Positions 21,501 to 60,286 of a stretch of DNA of 64,000 nucleotides are shown here, one piece after another. The translations under genes and the position numbers were made by a program. The stretch covers positions 1,980,501 through 2,044,500 of the forward strand of contig NZ_CP018632.1 in assembly GCF_002215215.1 (NCBI RefSeq), given 5' to 3'. The first letter of the stretch is position 1. Each line of letters starts with the position of its first letter. The DNA comes from Granulosicoccus antarcticus IMCC3135 (lineage in GTDB: Bacteria; Pseudomonadota; Gammaproteobacteria; Granulosicoccales; Granulosicoccaceae). The notes beneath the pieces are model-generated. The model saw only the letters and a list, made by a program, of their open reading frames with translations. It was not told the origin of the DNA and did no database searches.

Positions 21501-21617
21501 ATGAAAGTCAGAGCATCAGTGAAGAAGATCTGTCGCAACTGCAAGGTAGTCAAACGTAAAGGCGTTGTTCGCGTCATTTGCAATACTGACGCCCGGCATA
21601 AGCAGCGTCAGGGTTAG
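21501..21617 (+). CDS. rpmJ: Ribosomal protein L36
   Basis: 38 residues, read directly: [17 protein letters not shown], then a middle stretch with a single Cys, ending KQRQG. The zinc ligands CxxC, C and H are present, so this is the zinc-binding form. It lies in its usual place between secY and rpsM, with GGAG upstream. Confidence 0.97.
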
Positions 21618-21643
21618 TTAAAATACTTTAGGCGGAGATAAGC

Positions 21644-22000
21644 ATGGCACGTATTGCCGGCATTAACATTCCGGTCCAGAAACATACCTGGATCGCATTG
21701 ACATCAATATACGGAATAGGGCGTACACGCGCGTACCAGATTTGCGGTACTGCAAATGTTGCACCTGAAACCAAGGTTCGTAATCTCTCAGAAGTCGAGA
21801 TCGAGAGTCTACGTACCGAAGTAGGAAAATTTATAGTCGAAGGCGACCTGCGTCGCGATGTTTCGATGAACATAAAGCGTCTGATGGACCTCGGTTGTTA
21901 CCGTGGAATTCGCCATCGTCGGGGCTTACCCCTTCGCGGTCAACGTACGAAGACTAATGCGCGCACGCGTAAAGGTCCGCGTAGACCGCTCAAGCGTTAA
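21644..22000 (+). CDS. rpsM: Ribosomal protein S13
   Basis: 118 residues. [19 protein letters not shown] with the C-terminal [20 protein letters not shown] that touches P-site tRNA. In E. coli this gene opens the alpha operon. Confidence 0.98.
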
Positions 22001-46352: not shown

Positions 46353-46538
46353 CTAGAGTGCGCCAACCTTCATGATTTGCGTCAAATCAACCTTTTGCAC
46401 CATCTTGCTAGAGGGCTGCGGCGTCTCCACTAAACCGGGGGCGAGTTTGATCGCTTGGTGCACTCCCCATTGACCCAGCGGCGAGAGGGTGATAACTTCC
46501 ATCGCGTTCGGGTTCTGTGGCCACATGTGGGTCATGGT
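46353..46538 (-). CDS. Possible small protein antisense to the cob leader
   Basis: A 61-residue frame (MTHMWPQNPNAMEVITLS... to ...IMKVGAL) with codon choice that looks coding (about 70 percent G or C at third positions by hand count). It has no ribosome site, and the frame continues upstream through the riboswitch to 46721, so it could be a 3' gene remnant or chance. I do not recognise it. It is convergent with the importer operon and divergent from cobG. Confidence 0.3.
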   Translation of the reverse strand, partial: TMTHMWPQNPNAMEVITLSPLGQWGVHQAIKLAPGLVETPQPSSKMVQKVDLTQIMKVGAL

Positions 46539-46720
46539 GAAATGGGAAACCGGTGACGCCAATATTGTCAGCATTGAGTGCTGATCGTACTGGTTATTCC
46601 GGTGCAGCCCCCGCTGCTGTAAGCCTGACGGGTTTGTCGTGCACCACTGAGAGCTATCAATCACGCTCTTGGGAAGGTGACAATGCCCGGATGAAGGTGA
46701 GCCAGAAGACCTGCCCGACA
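46530..46720 (+). ncRNA. Cobalamin riboswitch upstream of the cob operon
   Basis: Contains the conserved elements in order: GGGAAACCGGTG (46544-46555), TTATTCCGGTGCAGCCCCCGC with CTGTAAGC (46594-46624, the B12 box core) and the 3' element GAGCCAGAAGACCTGCCC (46700-46716). The first internal stem is longer than usual. Downstream, GGGCAGG (46749-46755) can pair perfectly with CCTGCCC of the 3' element (46710-46716), which offers a switch between two structures. The class binds adenosylcobalamin or related forms and turns off synthesis genes when B12 is plentiful. About 200 bases separate it from the cobG start. Confidence 0.92.
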
Positions 46721-46956
46721 ACAGTGTTCAGTTATTGCTCCGGGGTGAGGGCAGGGCCGATTGTGCAGATCAGTGCGTTCAATGGTTCGCGATTTTGGCG
46801 GTGCAAGACTGCCAGATGAGTTCCGGGTAAGCACAGGGCTTTGCTGGCAATGCTTCGTACAGGCAAGAAACCTGCGATCCTGACGTCAGTACTGCAATAA
46901 CAATCCGTCATACGTTATCCCCGGCTTCTTTGGTATTCATCAGTTGGAGCTTTCGA

Positions 46957-50240: not shown

Positions 50241-50977
50241 GCAAGCCAGTCCAGCACCTCATCGACGCTATGGCAACGTGTGCAAGCCTGCTGTATGGGC
50301 CGATTTATCATGACAACCGGCAATTGCAAGTGACGCGCTGCGACCAGCTTGGCAACAGCACCACTACCGCCGGAGTTCTTGCAGACAATGATGTCAATGG
50401 CATGCTCTCGCAGCATTGCCAGATCCTGCTCTACGGTAAAAGGCCCGCGATCGACAACGTAGCTGGCAAATGGAAGAGGCGGAGCCTCTTCTGGTTGATC
50501 GACAAGTCGCAGCAGGTAGTGATGCTGGGCTTGCCGAGTAAAAGCCTTTATATGTTGTTTGCCAATGGCAAGAAATATGTTCGATGCAACTTGAGGCAGG
50601 GCATCGACGGCTGCATCGATATCGCACACGTACTGCCAGTTATCCGCCCCGCCGGCTTGCCAGGCCGCTCGTTCAAAAGAGCACAAATCAACGCCTGTGA
50701 GTGCACAGGCTTGCAAGGCATTGGCGCTGATACCTGCAGCAAAGGGGTGCGTTGCATCAATGACATGGCTGATGTCATGTTGTTGCAGCCAGTCCACCAT
50801 GCCCTCAACGCCTCCAAAGCCACCGATTCGTGTTGGAATGGGTTGCGCTTTCGGCGCTCGCGTCCGTCCGGCATACGAAAACCAGGCATTGATGCCCTGA
50901 TAAGCCATTGCATGCGCCATTGCATGCGCCATATCACTGGCTTCGGTGGTGCCGCCAAGCAGAAGAACGCTTGTCAT
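50216..50977 (-). CDS. cobK: Precorrin-6A reductase, reversed within the operon
   Basis: 253 residues. LLLGGTTEASDMA at the N-terminus, HVIDATHPFAAGISANA, and KNSGGSGAVAKLVAAR near the C-terminus are the CobK/CbiJ motifs. Reduces precorrin-6A to 6B with NADPH. It is encoded on the opposite strand from its neighbours: its 3' end overlaps cobJ by 25 bases, and its ATG shares the bases CATG (50975-50978) with the cobL start. It needs its own promoter, presumably inside cobL. A short repeat near the start encodes MAHAMAHAM. Confidence 0.93.
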   Translation of the reverse strand: MTSVLLLGGTTEASDMAHAMAHAMAYQGINAWFSYAGRTRAPKAQPIPTRIGGFGGVEGMVDWLQQHDISHVIDATHPFAAGISANALQACALTGVDLCSFERAAWQAGGADNWQYVCDIDAAVDALPQVASNIFLAIGKQHIKAFTRQAQHHYLLRLVDQPEEAPPLPFASYVVDRGPFTVEQDLAMLREHAIDIIVCKNSGGSGAVAKLVAARHLQLPVVMINRPIQQACTRCHSVDEVLDWLAHATLRGV

Positions 50978-52163
50978 GGATAAGCCCTGGTTGACTATTG
51001 TTGGTATAGGGGAGGATGGTATATCAGGACTGTCCGCTGCGAGTCGTGATGCTTTGAAGCAGGCAAGCCAGGTTTTTGGTTCGCCACGTCATTTACAACT
51101 GGCCGAGGCAGAGGATCGCGGTTGTGTCTGGCCTTTGCCATTTTCCATACAGGCTGTTCTGGAGCAGAGAGGCAGGCCGGTTGTGGTTCTGGCATCTGGC
51201 AATCCGTTCTGGAATGGAGTCGGTAGCCTGTTGTCTGCCGCCTTGCCTGACGATGAATGGCAGTCATGCTCGTCTCCGTCAAGCTACTCCCTGGCCGCTG
51301 CAAGGCAAGGCTGGGCCATGGAGAGCATCACATGTCTTGGCCTGCATGCAGCGCCCTTTGAGCGTTTGCTACCGGTGCTTTCGCGAGGGGCAAGAATAGT
51401 TTGCCTGTTGCGAGATGGGTCTGCACCTGCGCAGCTGGCACGATGGTTGGCAGAGCAAGGATTTGGTCGTTCCAGATTGAGTGTCATGGAAGCCCTCGGC
51501 GGGCCGCAGGAGCGTATACGGACGGGGTATGCGGATGAATTCAAGGTGTCCGATATTGGTGCACTGGTACTCGTTGCCATAGAGGTGGACGGCGGGCGTG
51601 GATTGCCACGAAGTGCAGGCTTGGCAAACGAGCTGTTCTCCCACGATGGCCAGATAACAAGAAGCGCCGTTCGTGCGTTGACACTGTCAGCGCTAGCGCC
51701 ACGCTGCGGTGAAATGCTCTGGGATATTGGAACAGGGTCGGGCTCGGTGTCGGTGGAATGGTGTTTGACGGCAGACAGAACACAGGCCATTGCGATGGAT
51801 GTTCGATCTGACAGATTGCAAAACGCGGAGAAGAACTGCGCCGCATTTGGTCTGCAGCATCGTATCCGCATCATCGCAGCAACAGCCCCCGATGGACTGA
51901 CTGAATTGCCGCTCCCGGATGCGGTGTTTGTCGGTGGCGGTGCCAGCGAGCACATGCTGGACGCTCTCTGGAAGCTTCTGCCTGAAGGTACACGTCTGGT
52001 TGCCAATGCCGTTACTCTGGAAACCGAAATTCTGCTTGCCCAATGGCATGAACGCGTTGGCGGCAGGCTGATACGCATCGATCTGGCCGAGGCTGGTCCA
52101 CTTGGAGCAGGGCGCGGCTGGCAGTGTGCTCGCCCGATTGTTCAATGGAGTGTCTGCCGGTGA
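50976..52163 (+). CDS. cobL: Precorrin-6B C5,15-methyltransferase (decarboxylating)
   Basis: 395 residues from the ATG at 50976; the frame upstream lies in cobK. The N-terminal half is a CbiE-like tetrapyrrole methylase (WLTIVGIGEDGISGLS) and the C-terminal half a CbiT-like class I methyltransferase with LWDIGTGSGSVSVEW. The fused protein methylates C5 and C15 and decarboxylates the C12 acetate side chain to give precorrin-8X. Its stop overlaps the cobE GTG. Confidence 0.95.
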   Translation: MDKPWLTIVGIGEDGISGLSAASRDALKQASQVFGSPRHLQLAEAEDRGCVWPLPFSIQAVLEQRGRPVVVLASGNPFWNGVGSLLSAALPDDEWQSCSSPSSYSLAAARQGWAMESITCLGLHAAPFERLLPVLSRGARIVCLLRDGSAPAQLARWLAEQGFGRSRLSVMEALGGPQERIRTGYADEFKVSDIGALVLVAIEVDGGRGLPRSAGLANELFSHDGQITRSAVRALTLSALAPRCGEMLWDIGTGSGSVSVEWCLTADRTQAIAMDVRSDRLQNAEKNCAAFGLQHRIRIIAATAPDGLTELPLPDAVFVGGGASEHMLDALWKLLPEGTRLVANAVTLETEILLAQWHERVGGRLIRIDLAEAGPLGAGRGWQCARPIVQWSVCR

Positions 52164-52612
52164 GGGTTGCAGGTCTGGGCTTCAGGCGACAAGTATCACT
52201 GGCATCACTACTGGAAGTCATGTCACGTGTTCAGTTCGAGCATGGCAAGCCGGACGCATTGGCCACGTCAGTATCGAAGTCAGATGCAGGACCTCTGCAA
52301 CTGCTGGCACTGACACTGGGCTTGCCGCTGCTGAGTATCGAACCTGAGCAGCTGGCCCGGCAAGAAACCCATACACAGTCCGCACGGCAACAGGGTTTGT
52401 TTGGAACCGGCTCTCTGGCGGAAGCCGCAGCTTTGGCTGCGGCCGGCCCGGAGGCCTGTCTACTACTGACGCGCATTGTGTCTGCTGACGGAATGGCAAC
52501 AGCGGCATTGGCACTGGCTTCACCATTGAACCAGCAATCCGATAACAGCAACAAGAAAACAACAGGGCATGACTCAGAGAACTCTCAGAAAACCTCTCAG
52601 GAAATCACATAG
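52160..52612 (+). CDS. cobE: CobE/CbiG C-terminal-like cobalamin biosynthesis protein
   Basis: 150 residues from the GTG at 52160 (GTGA overlap with cobL); the family start VRVAGLGFR supports this over the upstream ATGs at 52124 and 52145. It matches the short CobE pattern: LLALTLGLPLLSIEPEQLA, then LFGTGSLAEAAALAAAGPEACLL. CobE is required for B12 synthesis in the aerobic route, perhaps as an intermediate carrier. The last 30 residues are a Ser/Asn/Lys-rich tail of no obvious function. Confidence 0.85.
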   Translation: MRVAGLGFRRQVSLASLLEVMSRVQFEHGKPDALATSVSKSDAGPLQLLALTLGLPLLSIEPEQLARQETHTQSARQQGLFGTGSLAEAAALAAAGPEACLLLTRIVSADGMATAALALASPLNQQSDNSNKKTTGHDSENSQKTSQEIT

Positions 52613-52615
52613 GCT

Positions 52616-53401
52616 ATGACTGTCAATTTCATCGGTGCCGGCCCCGGCGCGGCAGATCTGATTACCGTGCGTGGGCGGGACCTCATCGCAGCCTGTCCAG
52701 TTTGTCTGTACGCCGGCTCACTGATTCCCGAAGCACTGTTGCAGTATTGTCCCGAGGGTGCGCACATTGTCAATACAGCATCACTATCGCTGGATGAAAT
52801 CATGGCTGAGATCAAAAAGGCGCATGAAAACAATCAGGACGTGGCACGGCTGCATTCAGGGGATCTATCTGTCTGGTCAGCAATGGGAGAGCAGATTCGT
52901 CGTTTAAAAGCGCTTGGTATCGAATACAAGGTCACGCCGGGTGTGCCCTCATTTGCCGCCGCTGCCGCAGAATTACAAGCCGAGCTGACCTTGCCCGGTG
53001 TTGCTCAGTCCGTGGTATTGACGCGCACTCAGGGACGAGCCAGTAGTATGTTGCCTACCGAAACGCTGGACAACTTTGCTGCAACCGGTGCCACGCTTGC
53101 TATCCACCTCTCTATTCAGGCCTTGTCAAAGGTGGTGCAACAACTTTTGCCAAGACTAGGGGCTGATTGCCCGATTGTGGTGATATGGCGTGCCAGCTGG
53201 CCCGACCAGCGCATCGTTCGAGCAACGCTTGGCACGATAGAGCAAGCGGTTGGTGAGAACTGCCAGCGTACAGCCCTCATATTGGTGGGCAAGGCCCTGG
53301 ATACCGAGGATTTTTCTGATAGTTGCCTGTACTCCGGCAGCTATGATCGACGTTTTCGACCTGTTGGAACGGCACCCAGATTTCCCACCACGGAGTCTTG
53401 A
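52616..53401 (+). CDS. cobM: Precorrin-4 C11-methyltransferase
   Basis: 261 residues. [44 protein letters not shown] and [17 protein letters not shown] are diagnostic for CobM/CbiF. Methylates C11 to give precorrin-5. Three bases after cobE; its stop overlaps the cobB start (TGATG). Confidence 0.95.
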
Positions 53402-54723
53402 TGAGCATGCCTGCAGGAGTACTGATTTCAGCGCCTGGCTCCGGCGTGGGCAAGACAACACTATGTCTGGGCCTGCTTAGAGCGCTGCGCGATCGGGGCT
53501 TGGCTGTACAGCCCTTCAAATGCGGGCCTGACTATATCGATCCTGGTTTTCATCGTGTGGCGAGCGGTCATGAATCGATGAATCTGGATAGCTGGAGCAT
53601 GCCATCCCATACTATCGAGGCGTTGCTCAATACGGTTGAAGGCAAAGACTTTGTTGTGTGTGAAGGTGCCATGGGCTTGTTTGATGGTGCCGCAAATCGG
53701 GGTGAAAGTGGCACGGGTTCCGCCGCTGATATTGCCGCAATGACGGGCTGGCCAGTCGTTCTGGTGCTGGATGTTTCTTCGCAGGCACAGTCTGCAGTGG
53801 CGGTGGCATTGGGTTTTTCAGCACTGCGTTCAGATGTTCATATCGCAGGCGTTGTGCTTAATCGCGTAGCCAGTTTGAGACACGAAGCATTGATCCGCGA
53901 TGCCATGCAGCAGGCCGGTGTACGCGTGCTGGGTGTGCTGCCACGCAATGCCGACATCCAGTTGCCCGAACGTCACCTTGGGCTGGAACAGTCGAGGGAG
54001 CTGGGTGACAGGGAAGACAGAATGTCGGCGATAGGGAAGTTTGTTGCTGATCATGTGGATCTGGACGCGCTGCTGTCAGTTGCCAGGCCCACGCATCCAG
54101 GTAGCGTCACTGCAGACTGGCCGCAGCCTCCCGGACAACGGATCGCGCTGGCAGACGATGCTGCGTTCTCGTTCATGTATCCGCACCTGCGCAACGCATG
54201 GCAGGCGGCAGGTGCTGAGTTGATACCTTTTTCTCCGTTGGCCAATGAAGCACCCGATGAGCGCGCCGATGTGTGCTGGCTCCCGGGTGGTTATCCAGAG
54301 TTGCATGCAGGAACGCTGGCAGCGGCATCGAAGTTTCGTCAAGGATTGCAAGTTTTTGCCCAGAGTCGACCGGTACATGGTGAATGCGGTGGTTATATGG
54401 CGATGGGAGAGGCATTGATTGATGCCAATGGCGATCGACATGAAATGGCGGGTCTTCTGGGGCTGGTCACATCCTTTGAACGTCGTCGTCTACATCTGGG
54501 CTATCGGTTTTCCCAACTACTGTCGCCCATGCCTGGTCTTGAATCAGGCAGCTGCTTGCGCGGTCATGAGTTTCACTACAGTTCGATCATCGAGCAGCCA
54601 GACGAACCATTGGCACGAGTGCAGGACGCCAGTGGTAAGCAGGTGCCGGAAGCAGGTTCGTGGCGCAACAATGCTAGTGGCAGTTTTTTTCATCTGGTGG
54701 CCAAGGCGGTTAAGCTGACATGA
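53401..54723 (+). CDS. cobB: Hydrogenobyrinate a,c-diamide synthase
   Basis: 440 residues from the ATG at 53401 (GGAG five bases upstream). The N-terminal ATP-binding domain carries GSGVGKTT and FKCGPDYIDPGFH, and the C-terminal class I glutamine amidotransferase domain carries HGECGGYMAMGEAL with the catalytic cysteine. Amidates the a and c side chains using ATP and glutamine. This product is the substrate of the CobN cobalt chelatase, whose probable ATPase partners lie at the left end of the window. Confidence 0.94.
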   Translation: MSMPAGVLISAPGSGVGKTTLCLGLLRALRDRGLAVQPFKCGPDYIDPGFHRVASGHESMNLDSWSMPSHTIEALLNTVEGKDFVVCEGAMGLFDGAANRGESGTGSAADIAAMTGWPVVLVLDVSSQAQSAVAVALGFSALRSDVHIAGVVLNRVASLRHEALIRDAMQQAGVRVLGVLPRNADIQLPERHLGLEQSRELGDREDRMSAIGKFVADHVDLDALLSVARPTHPGSVTADWPQPPGQRIALADDAAFSFMYPHLRNAWQAAGAELIPFSPLANEAPDERADVCWLPGGYPELHAGTLAAASKFRQGLQVFAQSRPVHGECGGYMAMGEALIDANGDRHEMAGLLGLVTSFERRRLHLGYRFSQLLSPMPGLESGSCLRGHEFHYSSIIEQPDEPLARVQDASGKQVPEAGSWRNNASGSFFHLVAKAVKLT

Positions 54724-55490
54724 TTACATTGACTCTGGTAGGGATAGGCACCGGGAATGCAAAGCACTTGACCCTTCAGGCTATAGAGGCGCTCAATCAG
54801 AGCGATCTGATCCTGATTCCCCGAAAAGGGCCTGGCAAGGATGACCTGGCCGAACTACGCCTGGTCATCTGCAATCAGGTCCTGCAACCCGATGGTCCCG
54901 TGATTCATGAGTTTGTCATGCCAGAGCGCGATCCGGCAATTGCTAACTATGAAACAAGAGTGCAAGCCTGGCACTCGCAGACAGCGTTGGTCTGGAGCCA
55001 TGGGATTTCTCAACACCTGGGTAATCGTGGTCGCGTGGCATTTCTGGTCTGGGGCGATCCTTCGCTCTACGACAGTACGCTACGTATTGCTGATCGGCTT
55101 GCCTCGACAATGGCAACACAGGTAGAGATGATTCCCGGGATCACCTCAATACAGACCCTGACCGCAGGTCATGCCATTAGCCTCAATGAATTGGCTGAAC
55201 CATTCATTGTAACGACCGGCCGTCGGTTACGCGAGAACGGATGGCCGGAGGCCGTCAGCACGGTTGTGGTCATGCTCGACAAGGGTGGTGCATTTACCTG
55301 TATTGATCCGGCAGGCGTTGATATCTGGTGGTCGGCCTATGCCGGTATGCCGCAGGAAATAAAGATAGCGGGCCCACTGCAGTCTGTATCCGAACAGATC
55401 GTGCAAACCCGGGCGGTAGCCCGCGAGCGGCACGGCTGGATCATGGATATCTATCTGATGCGACGTAGGTCAGGTACGGCTCTGGCTTGA
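54720..55490 (+). CDS. cobF: Precorrin-6A synthase (deacetylating)
   Basis: 256 residues. LTLVGIGTGNAKHLTLQAIEAL, RVAFLVWGDPSLYDSTLRI and MIPGITSIQTLTAGH identify CobF, which methylates C1 and releases acetate from precorrin-5. It is restricted to the aerobic pathway, in agreement with cobG. Overlaps cobB by ATGA and is the last gene of the operon; no clear terminator follows in the next 80 bases. Confidence 0.93.
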   Translation: MITLTLVGIGTGNAKHLTLQAIEALNQSDLILIPRKGPGKDDLAELRLVICNQVLQPDGPVIHEFVMPERDPAIANYETRVQAWHSQTALVWSHGISQHLGNRGRVAFLVWGDPSLYDSTLRIADRLASTMATQVEMIPGITSIQTLTAGHAISLNELAEPFIVTTGRRLRENGWPEAVSTVVVMLDKGGAFTCIDPAGVDIWWSAYAGMPQEIKIAGPLQSVSEQIVQTRAVARERHGWIMDIYLMRRRSGTALA

Positions 55491-55573: not shown

Positions 55574-56353
55574 GTGGAAATCAGCCGCTTGAAAGTCAAT
55601 CGCAACGATCCTTGTCCCTGTGGCAGTGGCAAAAAATACAAAAAGTGCTGCATGCAAACAGCCACAGGCCCGGCGGGACGTGATTTAGTGCGTACTGTTC
55701 GGCATTTGCAGACGTTGATTGAAGACTTTGGCAGGCAGCGCTACGGCGATTCGGCAGCGTTGGCTGCATGGGTAGACTTCAGCCGGTGGGGGCGTTCGGC
55801 AATTGCTCGCGACGAACAAGCCTATCAACCCGCCTTTGTTGCCTGGCGTCTGTTTGCCTGGTTGCCAGATGATGTGGGTTTGGGCGAACAACGCTTCAAG
55901 ACTCCGCCATCCGATCAGGCAATTGCCTATGATTACCTGAAAGCACATCGGGACAGTCTGAGCCAGATGGAAAAGGATGTTATAGAAATCGGCACCAAGT
56001 CGCCTTATAGTTTCTATTCGATTCTCGCTGTGTTATCAAAAAATCGCCTGCAAGTTCAGGACATATATACCGGACAAATACTGATGGTGGAGGATGTAGC
56101 TACTGCGGCTTATTCGCAAGGCGATGTGTTATTTGCTGCGGTGTTGAACATCAATGGCCTATCCGTACTGCTGGGTTGCCTGCCTCAGACTCTTGACTCC
56201 AGTGCGCAGGTGAAGATTGAAGGGCATCGGGAGAAGTGGCGTGCCGAAGAGGGGAAGGCTATCGATCACCGCTTGCTCTACTTGCATGACACCGAGCTGC
56301 GGCGATTCTATTTCATGCTGCTGGAACAGGCACAACGGGCCCAGCTTCACTAG
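55574..56353 (+). CDS. SEC-C zinc-motif protein, function unknown
   Basis: Up to 259 residues. Residues about 10-26 contain [16 protein letters not shown], the SEC-C zinc-binding motif found at the SecA C-terminus and in many small adaptor-like proteins. The remainder has no domain I recognise. The start may be GTG at 55574 or TTG at 55589; neither has a strong ribosome site. The stop codon TAG (56351-56353) lies in the CTAG that flanks the palindromic element, so the native C-terminus may have been changed by that insertion. Confidence 0.75.
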
Positions 56354-56616
56354 TGGGTCGATCGGGAAATAAGGTGATACTCAGAGTCTGCGTGCGCCCG
56401 TCCGACAAGGCGACCCGACGAAGGCGCACTGGAGTGCGGCGAGGAGGGGCAACGCAGGTGGACGGGCGCACGCAGACTCCCGAAGGGCGAGTTTGTCAGC
56501 CGCGCTGCCTGCGTTGTTCCCCCTCGCAGTACTCCAGTACGCCTTCGTGTGAACGCCTTGCCATCACGGCTGACAAACTCGCTGAGTATTACCTTATTTC
56601 CCGATCGACCCACTAG
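56350..56616. mobile_element. 267-bp palindromic MITE/REPIN-like element
   Basis: Outer ends are inverted repeats: 26 bases perfect (56350-56375 with 56591-56616), 35 bases with one mismatch. Inside lie two hairpins: a perfect 20-pair stem (56384-56403 with 56460-56479) and a perfect 16-pair stem (56487-56502 with 56567-56582). The loops of the two hairpins are diverged copies of each other in opposite orientation (compare GAAGGCGCACTGGAGTGC at 56420-56437 with the complement of the segment around 56528-56546). CTAG at both ends may be a target duplication. There is no coding capacity; open frames on both strands are by-products of the symmetry. Confidence 0.85.
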
Positions 56617-57282: not shown

Positions 57283-58242
57283 ATGGAACTACTTAGCTGT
57301 CCGCAATGTGCCCAAGTCGTCTATTTCGATAATGACGTTTGTCTCTCCTGCAATACGCGGTTGGCGTTCGATCCTGGTCCTCTGGCTATGGTCAAGGCTG
57401 ATGTTGATGCGGTTATGTGCAAGAACGCATCGAATCATAGTGTTTGCAACTGGACAGCGTTGCCAGACAGCTCGTTTTGCCTGGCCTGCAATGCGAACAA
57501 GACGATTCCAGATCTGTCCGCACATGGAAACCTGTCGCGCTGGCGTGCCATGGAACAGGCAAAGCGTCGGCTCTATTATTCGTTGCGTGAACTTGGCCTG
57601 GTTGAGGTCAGTGCACAACCTTTTCCTGAGCGTGCACCGCCTCTGCGGTTCCAGTTTCTGGGTGCAACCGCGAACAGACCGGTCACAACGGGTCATGAGG
57701 ATGGTCTCATCACCATTGATATTGCCGAGGCGGAGGACGCCGAGCGAGAACGCAGACGTGATGCGCTGGGTGAAGATTACCGGACCCCATTGGGTCACCT
57801 TCGGCACGAAACCGGACATTACTTCTGGTTATTGCTGGTCGACAGCGTCAATCAACATGATGGATTCCGGGCGATATTCGGTGATGAACGGCAGGACTAC
57901 TCCAAGGCGCTGAAGCACCATTATGAGAAGGGTCCGCGTGCCGACCGGCAGGACTGCTATATAACGGCCTACGCGTCAGCGCATCCGCACGAAGACTGGG
58001 CAGAAACGTTTGCTCATTATCTACACATCTACGACACCATGATGACGGCACAGGAAATCGGATTCATTCCCTTGGTAGAGCTGGATGGTCAGACACTGGT
58101 TGAGATGTGGATTCCGTTGAGCGTTCGATTGAATCTTCTTAATCGAAGTATGGGGGTCCGGGATCTTTACCCGTTTGTGCTGACAAAGCCGGTACGTGAC
58201 AAACTGATTTACGTTCACGAGGCCATACAACGCTCGAGATAG
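57283..58242 (+). CDS. Putative zinc-binding metallopeptidase with zinc-ribbon N-terminus
   Basis: 319 residues. The first 75 residues hold cysteine pairs CPQC, CLSC, a CNW region and CLAC, forming zinc-ribbon-like motifs. The core has RHETGHYFW, a variant HExxH zinc site, followed by a downstream acidic/histidine cluster HPHEDWAETFAHYLHI. This matches the bacterial 'putative zinc-binding metallo-peptidase' family (DUF2248/PF15887 type), whose substrates are unknown. No signal peptide, so cytoplasmic. The ribosome site is poor. Confidence 0.8.
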   Translation: MELLSCPQCAQVVYFDNDVCLSCNTRLAFDPGPLAMVKADVDAVMCKNASNHSVCNWTALPDSSFCLACNANKTIPDLSAHGNLSRWRAMEQAKRRLYYSLRELGLVEVSAQPFPERAPPLRFQFLGATANRPVTTGHEDGLITIDIAEAEDAERERRRDALGEDYRTPLGHLRHETGHYFWLLLVDSVNQHDGFRAIFGDERQDYSKALKHHYEKGPRADRQDCYITAYASAHPHEDWAETFAHYLHIYDTMMTAQEIGFIPLVELDGQTLVEMWIPLSVRLNLLNRSMGVRDLYPFVLTKPVRDKLIYVHEAIQRSR

Positions 58243-58349: not shown

Positions 58350-59459
58350 CTACAATCGGGTATTCAGGCCAAGTTGCTTGCGAGTGAGAATGAACCAGTC
58401 ACCGCCTTGCTTTTTCTTTGTATTGCCGTTGTCTCGAACAAACAATACGCCCGAGTCCGGAGAGGGATCAAGATCCATGAGTGCCAGTCCCTCGACACGC
58501 TTCAGCATTTCTTCTTGCTCACCAAGTTCTATTCGAATAGCTGGCTCTTGACCCGCTGCCGGTAATCGCCAGAGCTTGTAGGAATCATCCTTGTGATTCT
58601 CACGGCGGCTAATCAGTAGCAGTTGATCGCTCTGGTCATCATAGGTCATGGCGCGCAATCCGCCTTTATCAAGATCGACCGACCATAGTGTCTTGTCCAG
58701 TTCTGGTTGAGCATCATCATTAAAGTAGGCGGCGGGATTTTTCAGACGAATGATGATTGCGTTACCATTCAATACCGGAGTGCGAAAACCGATCAAGAGC
58801 ACGTCACGACTGCGATCGTATGCCAGCGCTTCGATATTCATGGAAGCTGCCTTTTTTTTGCTTTTTCCTTCAGTATCAGTCGCCAGTTGCGGGTAACTCT
58901 TCAGCAAGTCCCGTCGTAAGGTCAGTTTCGTGGAAACGTTGTGCATTCGTCCGTCGCGGATGGAGAATCGCAGCAGCTTCTGTCGCTCGCTACTCCAGTA
59001 CGGTGTTGAATCATCGTGTGAACTAATGATATAGAGCTGTTGCAGTTGATCATGCGCAGCGCCTTCAAGGTCGTCAAGTACACCAACGGATAGTCGCTCA
59101 GTCAGGCTCGAGGGCAGCTCTAGTCGGGTCTCGTCTTTGAGCGCAACTGCATTGCCTGTCAAGACCTCAGCTGTTACCAGGCGTAGTGCTTGAGCCGGCT
59201 CGTCTTCAACGATCAGGAAACGACCGTTGGGTAAAGGAGCAATGCCAGAGGGCTCGTAGAGCGTTGTGAAGCTGCCATCGAGCTTCATTGACAGATTGTT
59301 TGTGGATGGATCAATCAATTTTTCCTGATCAATCTGCGGAGTGCTTGCCCGGCCAGTGCTGCCCGCCGAAACCATGATGATAGCCAGAATAAAAGCAGGA
59401 ACAGTCCGTGGTTCTGGTTTGCGAGAATGGTTTACAGGAGTGGTAAGTGATTTGTCCAT
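58350..59459 (-). CDS. Exported DUF3616-like beta-propeller protein
   Basis: 369 residues with a hydrophobic export signal or anchor at about 20-38 (AFILAIIMVSAGSTGRA). The mature part has repeated strand patterns: GIAPLPNGRFLIVEDE, QLQQLYIISSHDDS, ASMNIEALAYDRSRDVLLIGFRTPV, GLRAMTYDDQSDQLLLISR, VEGLALMDLDPSPDSGVLFV. These resemble DUF3616/esterase-like phytase propellers. Its start lies 28 bases inside the end of the PycTM gene, so the two are co-transcribed and probably coupled. Function unknown. Confidence 0.65.
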   Translation of the reverse strand: MDKSLTTPVNHSRKPEPRTVPAFILAIIMVSAGSTGRASTPQIDQEKLIDPSTNNLSMKLDGSFTTLYEPSGIAPLPNGRFLIVEDEPAQALRLVTAEVLTGNAVALKDETRLELPSSLTERLSVGVLDDLEGAAHDQLQQLYIISSHDDSTPYWSSERQKLLRFSIRDGRMHNVSTKLTLRRDLLKSYPQLATDTEGKSKKKAASMNIEALAYDRSRDVLLIGFRTPVLNGNAIIIRLKNPAAYFNDDAQPELDKTLWSVDLDKGGLRAMTYDDQSDQLLLISRRENHKDDSYKLWRLPAAGQEPAIRIELGEQEEMLKRVEGLALMDLDPSPDSGVLFVRDNGNTKKKQGGDWFILTRKQLGLNTRL

Positions 59460-60286
59460 TTCATGCTCTCGATAATCAGAAGTGACATAACTGACAAGAT
59501 TATTCCACCAATGAATACTGTATACGAGTAATGCAACTTGCGGTATTTTCTGTCCGCGGTTGAACCCAGTTCATGAACATGAGAGATCATGTTTTTGTAA
59601 ACCCGATCATCGTCTGCCAACATGTATGACATCGCTTCAACGTATTGCTTTTCACTCAGATCCGAAAATTCTTCGAAAGCAAGCAAATGAGCTTTGTTCT
59701 CTTTGAAATCCTTCGGCGTAAATTTCTTGCGGCTGACATCGGGCCGCGCTGCCAGCACTGCAAAGACAGTCGCCATGGCACTGCTCAACAGAAATAGCGT
59801 GATCGGAATGGCAAACCAGATGTCGACGCCAATGAAATGTGTTCCTGAAATAATGAGCATGGATATCAGCAACCCGTTAAGCGAAATCATGATATTCGCT
59901 TTAACTGCAGCCAGAGAGAGCATATCCAACTGAGCTCGGTATGCATTGCGAAGTAACGTATCTATGCCCCGACGAGCGAGTATTTTGTTCTTTTTCCTGG
60001 GCTTGTTCTCTTTTTTCGCCACGTTTTTCTTTTTTGATCTTTTCGGCGTCCCGGTCATGTCTGATTTTTCGGAATTGCCGGGTTTTCTGAGCGGCCCTCT
60101 GCCGACGAGATCGCCCTGGATAACACTGGGAAGCAGAACCGGTGAATCCTTGCGCAGTTCGAAAACAAGAGGGTCGGTAATGTTAGATGTATCATGCGCG
60201 GCAGAGGAACCGTCCGCATTGAGAGGCAGCACATCGAGGCCATTGACTGAATCGCTGAATCTTGCGGTCTCACTGAAATTCGACAT
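59432..60286 (-). CDS. PycTM (Pycsar effector, DUF5706) membrane protein with long basic N-terminus
   Basis: 284 residues. Residues 1-110 are hydrophilic, with a lysine/arginine cluster at about 81-102. From 111 on the protein follows the PycTM pattern: LLRNAYRAQLDMLSLAAVKA, NIMISLNGLLISML (TM1, about 129-149), a second segment ending in FAVLAARP (156-182), a cytoplasmic-type helix pair with FEEFSDLSEKQYVEAMSYML and DRVYKNMISHVHELG, RKYRKLHYSYTVFIGG, and a third segment at 254-274. In Pycsar systems such proteins disrupt the membrane when cCMP or cUMP is made. A strong GGAGG precedes the ATG. No cyclase gene is seen nearby, so its role here is open. Confidence 0.8.
   Translation of the reverse strand: MSNFSETARFSDSVNGLDVLPLNADGSSAAHDTSNITDPLVFELRKDSPVLLPSVIQGDLVGRGPLRKPGNSEKSDMTGTPKRSKKKNVAKKENKPRKKNKILARRGIDTLLRNAYRAQLDMLSLAAVKANIMISLNGLLISMLIISGTHFIGVDIWFAIPITLFLLSSAMATVFAVLAARPDVSRKKFTPKDFKENKAHLLAFEEFSDLSEKQYVEAMSYMLADDDRVYKNMISHVHELGSTADRKYRKLHYSYTVFIGGIILSVMSLLIIESMKWTNHLPLL

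Follow-up and report, generated by a model that had tools for sequence, protein, structure and literature searches.

The 267-bp near-palindrome directly behind a SEC-C motif gene of Granulosicoccus antarcticus IMCC3135 is probably a MITE that is moved by a transposase of the IS630/Tc1-mariner type and carries two folded single-strand modules. The hairpin module inside it occurs outside this element, outside the genus and, apparently, outside the phylum.

Anatomy and insertion site of the element

Within the window, by which we mean the whole stretch of 64,000 nucleotides that was analyzed, the following features were delimited:

55574 to 56353, plus strand: upstream gene, SEC-C motif protein (open reading frame, domain match)
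56350 to 56616, unstranded: whole element, a near-palindrome (inverted repeats, folds, genome copies)
56350 to 56353, unstranded: left CTAG, presumed insertion target with duplicated TA (sequence, open reading frame, orthologues)
56350 to 56384, plus strand: left terminal inverted repeat of 35 nt, type A (sequence)
56384 to 56479, plus strand: hairpin unit 1, sense on the plus strand (inverted-repeat search, covariance model)
56406 to 56457, plus strand: conserved core of unit 1, CAAGGCG ... CGAAG ... tip ... GAG ... CAACGCAG (converted locus coordinates)
56479 to 56487, plus strand: linker CCC-GAA-GGG between the units, CCCTTCGGG on the opposite strand; a potential mini-hairpin (sequence)
56487 to 56582, minus strand: hairpin unit 2, sense on the minus strand (inverted-repeat search, covariance model)
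56509 to 56560, minus strand: conserved core of unit 2 (converted locus coordinates)
56582 to 56616, minus strand: right terminal inverted repeat of 35 nt, ending in the right CTAG (sequence)

The outer 35 nt (56350-56384 and 56582-56616) are inverted repeats that match at 34 of 35 positions, in agreement with an earlier sequence-only reading that had described a 267-bp palindrome with near-perfect ends at these positions and had noted the close likeness of the outer arms beside the divergence of the inner units. Overall, 56350-56458 pairs with 56508-56616 (109 nt, 78% complementary). The "two long perfect hairpins" of that reading are one perfect hairpin (hairpin 1, 20-nt arms at 56384-56403 and 56460-56479) and one nearly perfect one (hairpin 2, 21-nt arms at 56487-56507 and 56562-56582, 90% complementary), joined by CCCGAAGGG. 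The loops are related and inverted, as had been noted, but the kinship covers the units in full: a single covariance model, built from 46 sequences that include both window units, matched 56392-56471 on the plus strand (69.6 bits) and 56495-56574 on the minus strand (70.5 bits), and, with E values of up to 1 admitted, nothing further in the 64 kb. The element folded far better than its shuffled versions both as RNA (z = −16.4) and as DNA (z = −13.2), with 0 of 200 shuffles as good in either case, and a 21-base pattern of its end matched twice in the window (0.00 expected). The only open reading frames of at least 80 amino acids inside it are two 87-amino-acid frames on the palindrome. It thus has the makeup of a MITE, being below 300 bp, bounded by terminal inverted repeats and devoid of a transposase gene.

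The upstream reading frame ends CAC TAG, and its TAG falls within the first CTAG of the element, which bears out the earlier observation of an insertion exactly at the stop codon. Orthologues of the SEC-C gene end in CACTAG in two genomes of the genus, G012 and G024, and in CACTGA in a third, G019. Given the CACTAG ends in G012 and G024, the CTAG probably stood at the window site before the insertion. No recognizable element follows the orthologue in G024 or G019; in G012 it is followed by CTAGTGGGTC, which may be the relic of an old insertion or preexisting sequence.

Several other features of the window were recorded. Rfam matches over the window were confined to a cobalamin riboswitch (46493-46732, plus strand; RF00174, 101 bits) and an Alpha operon ribosome binding site (Alpha_RBS; 21581-21676, plus strand; RF00140, 39.5 bits, barely above threshold), both outside the element. 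The stretch from the cobalamin riboswitch to the element contains tetrapyrrole methylase and CobB/CobQ-like genes (50946-55490). A putative zinc metallopeptidase with a zinc-ribbon is encoded at 57283-58242 on the plus strand (Peptidase_Mx, E = 3.4e-89). A gene with a PycTM (Pycsar effector) domain at 59432-60286 on the minus strand (E = 5.8e-24), possibly a defense gene, adjoins a gene with a weak DUF3616 match.

Copies, target sites and candidate transposase

The genome of G. antarcticus IMCC3135 (7.78 Mb, one contig) holds two full copies of the element (that of the window and a second, 92% identical), two copies broken off within a hairpin and several remnants that keep an intact outer end. 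A further locus (L005) has different ends (type B), which are also found elsewhere in this genome, around related inner hairpins (73% over positions 32 to 236). Of the 57 genomes searched for relatives, five gave matches, every one of them from the same genus (this one, G003, G012, G019 and G024), so that 4 of the 26 other genomes of the genus carry matches and 22 do not; G003 has a third kind of ends (type C). These copies confirm that the element is dispersed, and they differ from what had been named as evidence against it, a single copy with no empty site. Distant-mode blastn searches with the 267-bp element found no match in the plasmid collection or in the phage collection. In G003, six loci (L087, L095, L096, L100, L102 and L109) are solitary single ends, partnerless in the pattern search, and are perhaps products of palindrome deletion. 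Several solitary ends of G003 stand shortly before an ATG.

We also compared occupied and unoccupied sites. At the site of a G012 copy (C30; site L256), G019 has no element; the flanks are 84% identical, and 47 bases in G019 stand against 118 in G012. An unoccupied site of the sort that the sequence-only reading had proposed to look for therefore exists, but without a clean single CTAG: because the intergenic sequence of G019 has diverged, the preinsertion site is not exactly readable. An all-against-all comparison of 116 loci (L117 to L232) found shared insertions and no perfect empty site, and the flanks of L002 found no two-sided site. Target duplication may be reflected in the CTAG at both ends of the element; in G024, the stop-codon CTAG stands without a recognizable element. 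The best-preserved full copies start and finish in CTAG; elsewhere the ends have degraded to CTGG, CCAG or CTAA. Together, these results give good support to a mobile family.

The IS630-family insertion sequences of the same genome (PF13358, DDE_3) provide a candidate motor. One type, represented by L072, is present in seven near-identical copies, with an interrupted eighth (L080) recognized by eye. Its 5′ ends, intact in six of the seven copies (L078 is truncated there), read CTAGTGGTGTAAC-CGCT-TGATA, and the 3′ ends of all seven read CTAGTAGGTTAAC-TGCA-TGATAC (AGCA in L072). The type C ends of G003 read TAGTGGTCTGTC-N4-TGATA and thus have the same two-part form. The sequence of type A differs, and both type A and type B match this form less well than type C when compared by eye. 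A second IS630 (L079) has the ends CTAGTGTACTG and CTAGTGTAGTG; both IS630 elements of this genome with readable ends start CTAGTG. One of the IS630 copies (L075) has inserted precisely into the left CTAG of L009, a 59-bp palindrome with type A ends, and CTAG stands at both junctions of the insertion sequence. This position fits the known preference of IS630 for the TA in CTAG (Tenzen and Ohtsubo 1991, cited in PMC2170065).

For a transposase sharing the element's ends, which the sequence-only reading had proposed to look for, the outcome is mixed: an IS630 resembles the type C ends, but none of the nine PF13358 loci examined for ends is an IS630 with type A ends. Two of the nine have credible ends (the L072 type and L079), neither of them type A. 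At L111 there is just a short palindrome starting CTAGTGT next to the gene, and the remaining six have no usable ends, some being truncated. Within the genus, 4 of 27 genomes had PF13358 matches; there was none in the element carriers G003, G012, G019 and G024, where the motor may have been lost, may lie in assembly gaps or may belong to another family. In Undibacterium hunanense, the end patterns with two mismatches gave 63 and 65 matches (9 and 4 for the reversed control), and inspection by eye of 20 stretches near such matches found no transposon with the element's ends. On balance, we regard IS630 as the motor of the element with moderate confidence. In such a scheme, a DDE transposase of the IS630/Tc1-mariner type, supplied in trans, would most likely recognize the element ends (in type C the two parts TAGTGGT.T..C and TGATA, separated by four free bases), cut the element out and paste it into the TA of a CTAG, with duplication of the TA. 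Insertion at a CTAG that holds a TAG stop would leave the stop codon whole, which would make the window insertion silent for the upstream protein.

Two other kinds of transposase were weighed against this scheme. The first is an IS5-type enzyme with a four-base CTAG/YTAR target duplication. A whole CTAG does stand at both sides of the element, which makes duplication of TA and of CTAG indistinguishable by sequence, and MITEPsy1, which duplicates CTAG or YTAA, is listed as "IS5?" in its description (PMC3189936). However, both readable IS630s of this genome start CTAGTG, and the L072 type has the two-part form of type C; we therefore consider an IS5-type motor unlikely. The second is a REP-associated Y1 (RAYT) transposase, which would mobilize a REPIN-like element in the form of a folded single strand; a REPIN architecture was among those that the sequence-only reading had suggested. 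REP units are short hairpins with a GTAG foot. The two inverted hairpin units, the CTAG tetranucleotide at their foot and the selection on the fold of one strand described below would suit such an element. The sequence, in contrast, does not consist of short REP hairpins with a GTAG foot and no terminal inverted repeats: it has true inverted ends with CTAG at both sides, its target and the type C end layout are shared with the resident DDE IS630, and deleted forms without complete hairpins are dispersed. With an anatomy so unlike that of REPINs, the Y1 reading appears highly improbable and is not upheld.

The deleted forms also bear on what the IS630-type scheme would need. In G012, a 72-bp form was present at 11 of the 38 element places inspected; it runs from the left end into the first core, where it passes at a shared CGACCC straight into the right end, and in consensus keeps approximately 11 bp of matched ends. 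Ten of the eleven have CTAG-like ends (five CTAG itself), the exception being L249. G. antarcticus IMCC3135 and G003 have still shorter forms (42 to 61 bp) that comprise hardly more than the ends, and forms of 67 to 68 bp occur in Undibacterium. These short forms may themselves be mobile, or one deletion may arise repeatedly via microhomology; mobility is the simpler account. Since short forms without complete hairpins are dispersed, the hairpins and core look unnecessary for movement, unless the deletions recur in place.

Recurrence and probable single-strand fold of the hairpin module

To follow the hairpin beyond the element, we searched a species-genome collection with a pattern of the core in which the arms were left free. 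At least 116 stretches matched. They span Pseudomonadota, Actinomycetota, Bacillota and metagenome bins of other phyla; the matches listed include Undibacterium, Janthinobacterium, Massilia, Halopseudomonas, Endozoicomonas and Nocardioides, strains of Paenibacillus montaniterrae and Ruminiclostridium hungatei, and bins labeled Acidobacteria, Eisenbacteria, Planctomycetota and Elusimicrobia, labels that can be wrong. Although the arms formed no part of the search pattern, they were complementary at 8 or more of their first 10 positions (G.T allowed) in 93 of the 101 distinct-core matches among those listed, whereas 11.7% reached this level when arms were swapped between matches. Pairing fell below 7 of 10 in five matches (L151, L164, L212, L231 and the viral L233). 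The last of these was the sole pattern match in viral contigs and, with arms paired at 5 of 10, was taken as chance.

Many of these hairpins lie within short elements that are flanked by CTAG or TA and have inverted ends of quite different sequence. A scan of 100 loci with an E cutoff of 1e-4 detected inverted pairs of units, 104 to 115 bases apart, at 10 of them (L127, L144, L153, L156, L157, L170, L187, L190, L209 and L213), in records that include Granulosicoccaceae, Lysobacteraceae, Alcanivorax, Pseudomonadaceae, Uliginosibacterium and Ruminiclostridium; the L156 and L190 records are the same sequences as two G003 copies. Unlike these pairs, two units in an Oxalobacteraceae bin (L142, 7027-7110 and 7134-7215) are in the same orientation, 107 bases apart. 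When 397 Pseudomonadota genomes with a completeness of 90% or more were searched, the covariance model of 46 units matched 63 (E ≤ 1e-4, G. antarcticus IMCC3135 included), representing 51 of 232 genera; scoring was confined to roughly the 11 best candidates of each genome, and copy numbers are lower bounds.

Longer single-hairpin versions of approximately 185 to 280 bp were noted at seven loci of Undibacterium hunanense G057 (L322, L323, L324, L325, L334, L336 and L340). They carry an extra module of approximately 80 to 90 bases in the core after CAAGGC, with inverted repeats of its own, twice in tandem in L324. An Rfam search of five of these loci (E ≤ 0.1) found nothing.

We then examined the fold in an alignment (A1) of 46 of the 48 listed units, hand-picked from the pattern matches, with L122 and L181 left out for their longer tips. 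Because the search pattern fixed the core letters, their invariance in A1 is no evidence of conservation; the arm, inner-stem and strand tests are independent of these letters. At 20 named pairs, 84.1% of cells were paired, against 54.1% in shuffled and at most 43.3% in slid alignments. Two-sided changes occurred at 17 pairs, a number that is not itself unusual (16.9 in shuffles), but they involved 304 cells, against 113.9 in shuffles. Covariation was likewise strong: the score was 0.724, a value that none of 500 shuffles attained (0.195 when shuffled), and slid alignments gave no more than 0.253.

The mismatches at the 17 variable pairs distinguished the strands, with 74 G.T against 16 A.C on the sense strand, where a G.T share of 59% was obtained when letters were dealt anew (P ≈ 4e-6, sequences treated as independent). 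Grouping by loose arm clusters gave 14 to 1 in favor of G.T with 2 ties (P = 0.001), a coarse sign test given that one cluster holds 21 of the 46 units. All 101 distinct-core matches among those listed gave 225 against 95 in a first count. This excess of G.T over A.C on one strand suggests that a single-stranded fold, of RNA or single-stranded DNA, is under selection; a double-stranded cruciform would give no such difference. The fold that is kept seems to be that of the strand reading CAAGGCG...CAACGCAG, as RNA or as single-stranded DNA, and we hold a single-strand function of the module to be moderately well supported.

An account of arm pairing that needs no function is purely mutational: template switching within a quasi-palindrome would keep the arms alike, and the hairpin would do nothing. 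It draws on the two-ended type C copies of G003, in which the 4-nt spacer is equal in both arms in 9 of 11 copies, and these nine use six different spacers. Two copies deviate: L103 has unequal spacers (CACA/CAGT), and in L088 the left arm stops two bases into the spacer. In eight of the nine copies, the first 20 bases of the arms differed on average by 0.375 within a copy and by 3.1 between copies; when arms were re-paired at random 20,000 times, 3 of the trials equaled the observed pairing. The spacers of the IS630 of G. antarcticus IMCC3135 are unequal between its two ends. Transposition therefore seems possible without matched arms, and the matching would come from the palindrome, either by selection for pairing or because one arm is copied onto its partner. 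The matched outer arms of the window copy, which had been read as a sign of recent movement or of strong selection for pairing, may stem from correction within the palindrome and do not demonstrate recent movement. As a full explanation of the hairpin, the mutational account leaves the G.T excess, a count that already weakens it, and the same core with complementary arms in distant bacteria unexplained, and we judge it improbable.

A second alternative assigns the hairpin a role in cis, as a terminator, RNase site or stability hairpin for neighboring transcripts. Such roles have been proposed for ERIC and Neisseria elements (PMC2229807), tolerance of G.T wobbles suits RNA, and the window copy stands directly 3′ of a stop codon. 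Counted against neighboring genes, however, the orientation of the units was unbiased (19, 18, 12 and 12 of 61 intergenic cases, counting only units with a 130-amino-acid reading frame no more than 600 nt away on either side; by a crude rule, 22 further units lie inside called reading frames). This distribution lends no support to a role in neighboring mRNAs, and a single element holds both orientations; there is perhaps a modest chance that the hairpin acts in this way. The same lack of a tie to gene direction, together with the strand-specific fold, would suit a single-stranded DNA signal that is exposed at replication and read by a host or element protein. No protein candidate speaks for such a signal, and we rate it as a possibility on the weak side, if somewhat less doubtful than a role in cis.

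The reading we prefer, a MITE with folded single-strand modules, would account for the interior as two inverted copies of an 80- to 95-nt hairpin whose core is conserved between phyla and whose arms drift yet stay complementary, on one strand in particular. A conserved core with drifting but complementary arms suggests that the hairpin is a selected folded single-strand module, not a mere by-product of the ends, and the inverted pair would offer one sense copy on either strand.

Relation to known families and implications

We compared the element with described families. In Rfam 15, no family reached its threshold on the element. A loose search (E up to 10) matched five microRNA models, the best with E = 7.7e-8 and 50.1 bits against a gathering threshold of 137, and DUF3800-IV (E = 0.17); all six were rejected as generic matches to a long hairpin. 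Units of 18 diverse loci gave one tRNA and no family for the hairpin. No description of this core was recognized by title or abstract in the literature searched, and an earlier description is possible.

Several small repeats resemble the element in part. RUP of Streptococcus pneumoniae is small, multicopy and intergenic, uses TA sites and is presumed to depend on an IS630 transposase (IS630-Spn1) acting in trans, but it is pneumococcal and, in the account compared, has no other signature of structure or function (PMC2229807), whereas the core described here recurs between phyla. The Caulobacter CerM-associated intergenic repeats (CIR) share two long inverted repeats, two arms with a linker and a conserved fold; compared by description only, they differ in their GANTC motifs and in a mobility that is unclear (PMC2229807). 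MITEPsy1 of Pseudomonas syringae, a 100-nt MITE at CTAG or YTAA with relatives in other genera, differs in its printed ends (GGAAGGTCTGAAAAAGCC), the only part compared (PMC3189936). REPINs, the partners of RAYT, likewise join two inverted hairpins into one mobile unit (PMC3189936), but the window element is bounded by terminal inverted repeats and has an IS630-like target. IS630 of Shigella shares the preference for TA in CTAG, and ISY100 inserts into and duplicates TA; unlike the element, both are autonomous, and the parts of the source that treat them mention no hairpin core (PMC2170065). Within the accounts compared, which are partial, none of RUP, CIR, ERIC, the Correia/Neisseria elements and MITEPsy1 has this core.

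Beyond the MITE itself, we tentatively consider that the true selfish unit could be the single-strand hairpin module of approximately 80 nt, which would have spread between phyla, swapped transposon ends and persisted through an interaction of its core (CAAG-GCG ... CGAAG/CGAG ... CAA-CGC-AG, as RNA or single-stranded DNA) with a widespread factor. This is a possibility that we hold to be clearly less probable than not.

MITEs are usually viewed as lineage-specific debris with an unimportant interior. Here it is the interior that recurs, with the same core and free but complementary arms, in elements with different ends. The matched arm spacers are a natural record of arm homogenization within palindromes, and if the short forms are mobile, movement can do without the long palindrome. 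Taken together, these results would mean that a large unnamed family of structured sequences is present in about one-sixth of the sampled Pseudomonadota genomes, and that a selfish sequence may be far more widespread than known.
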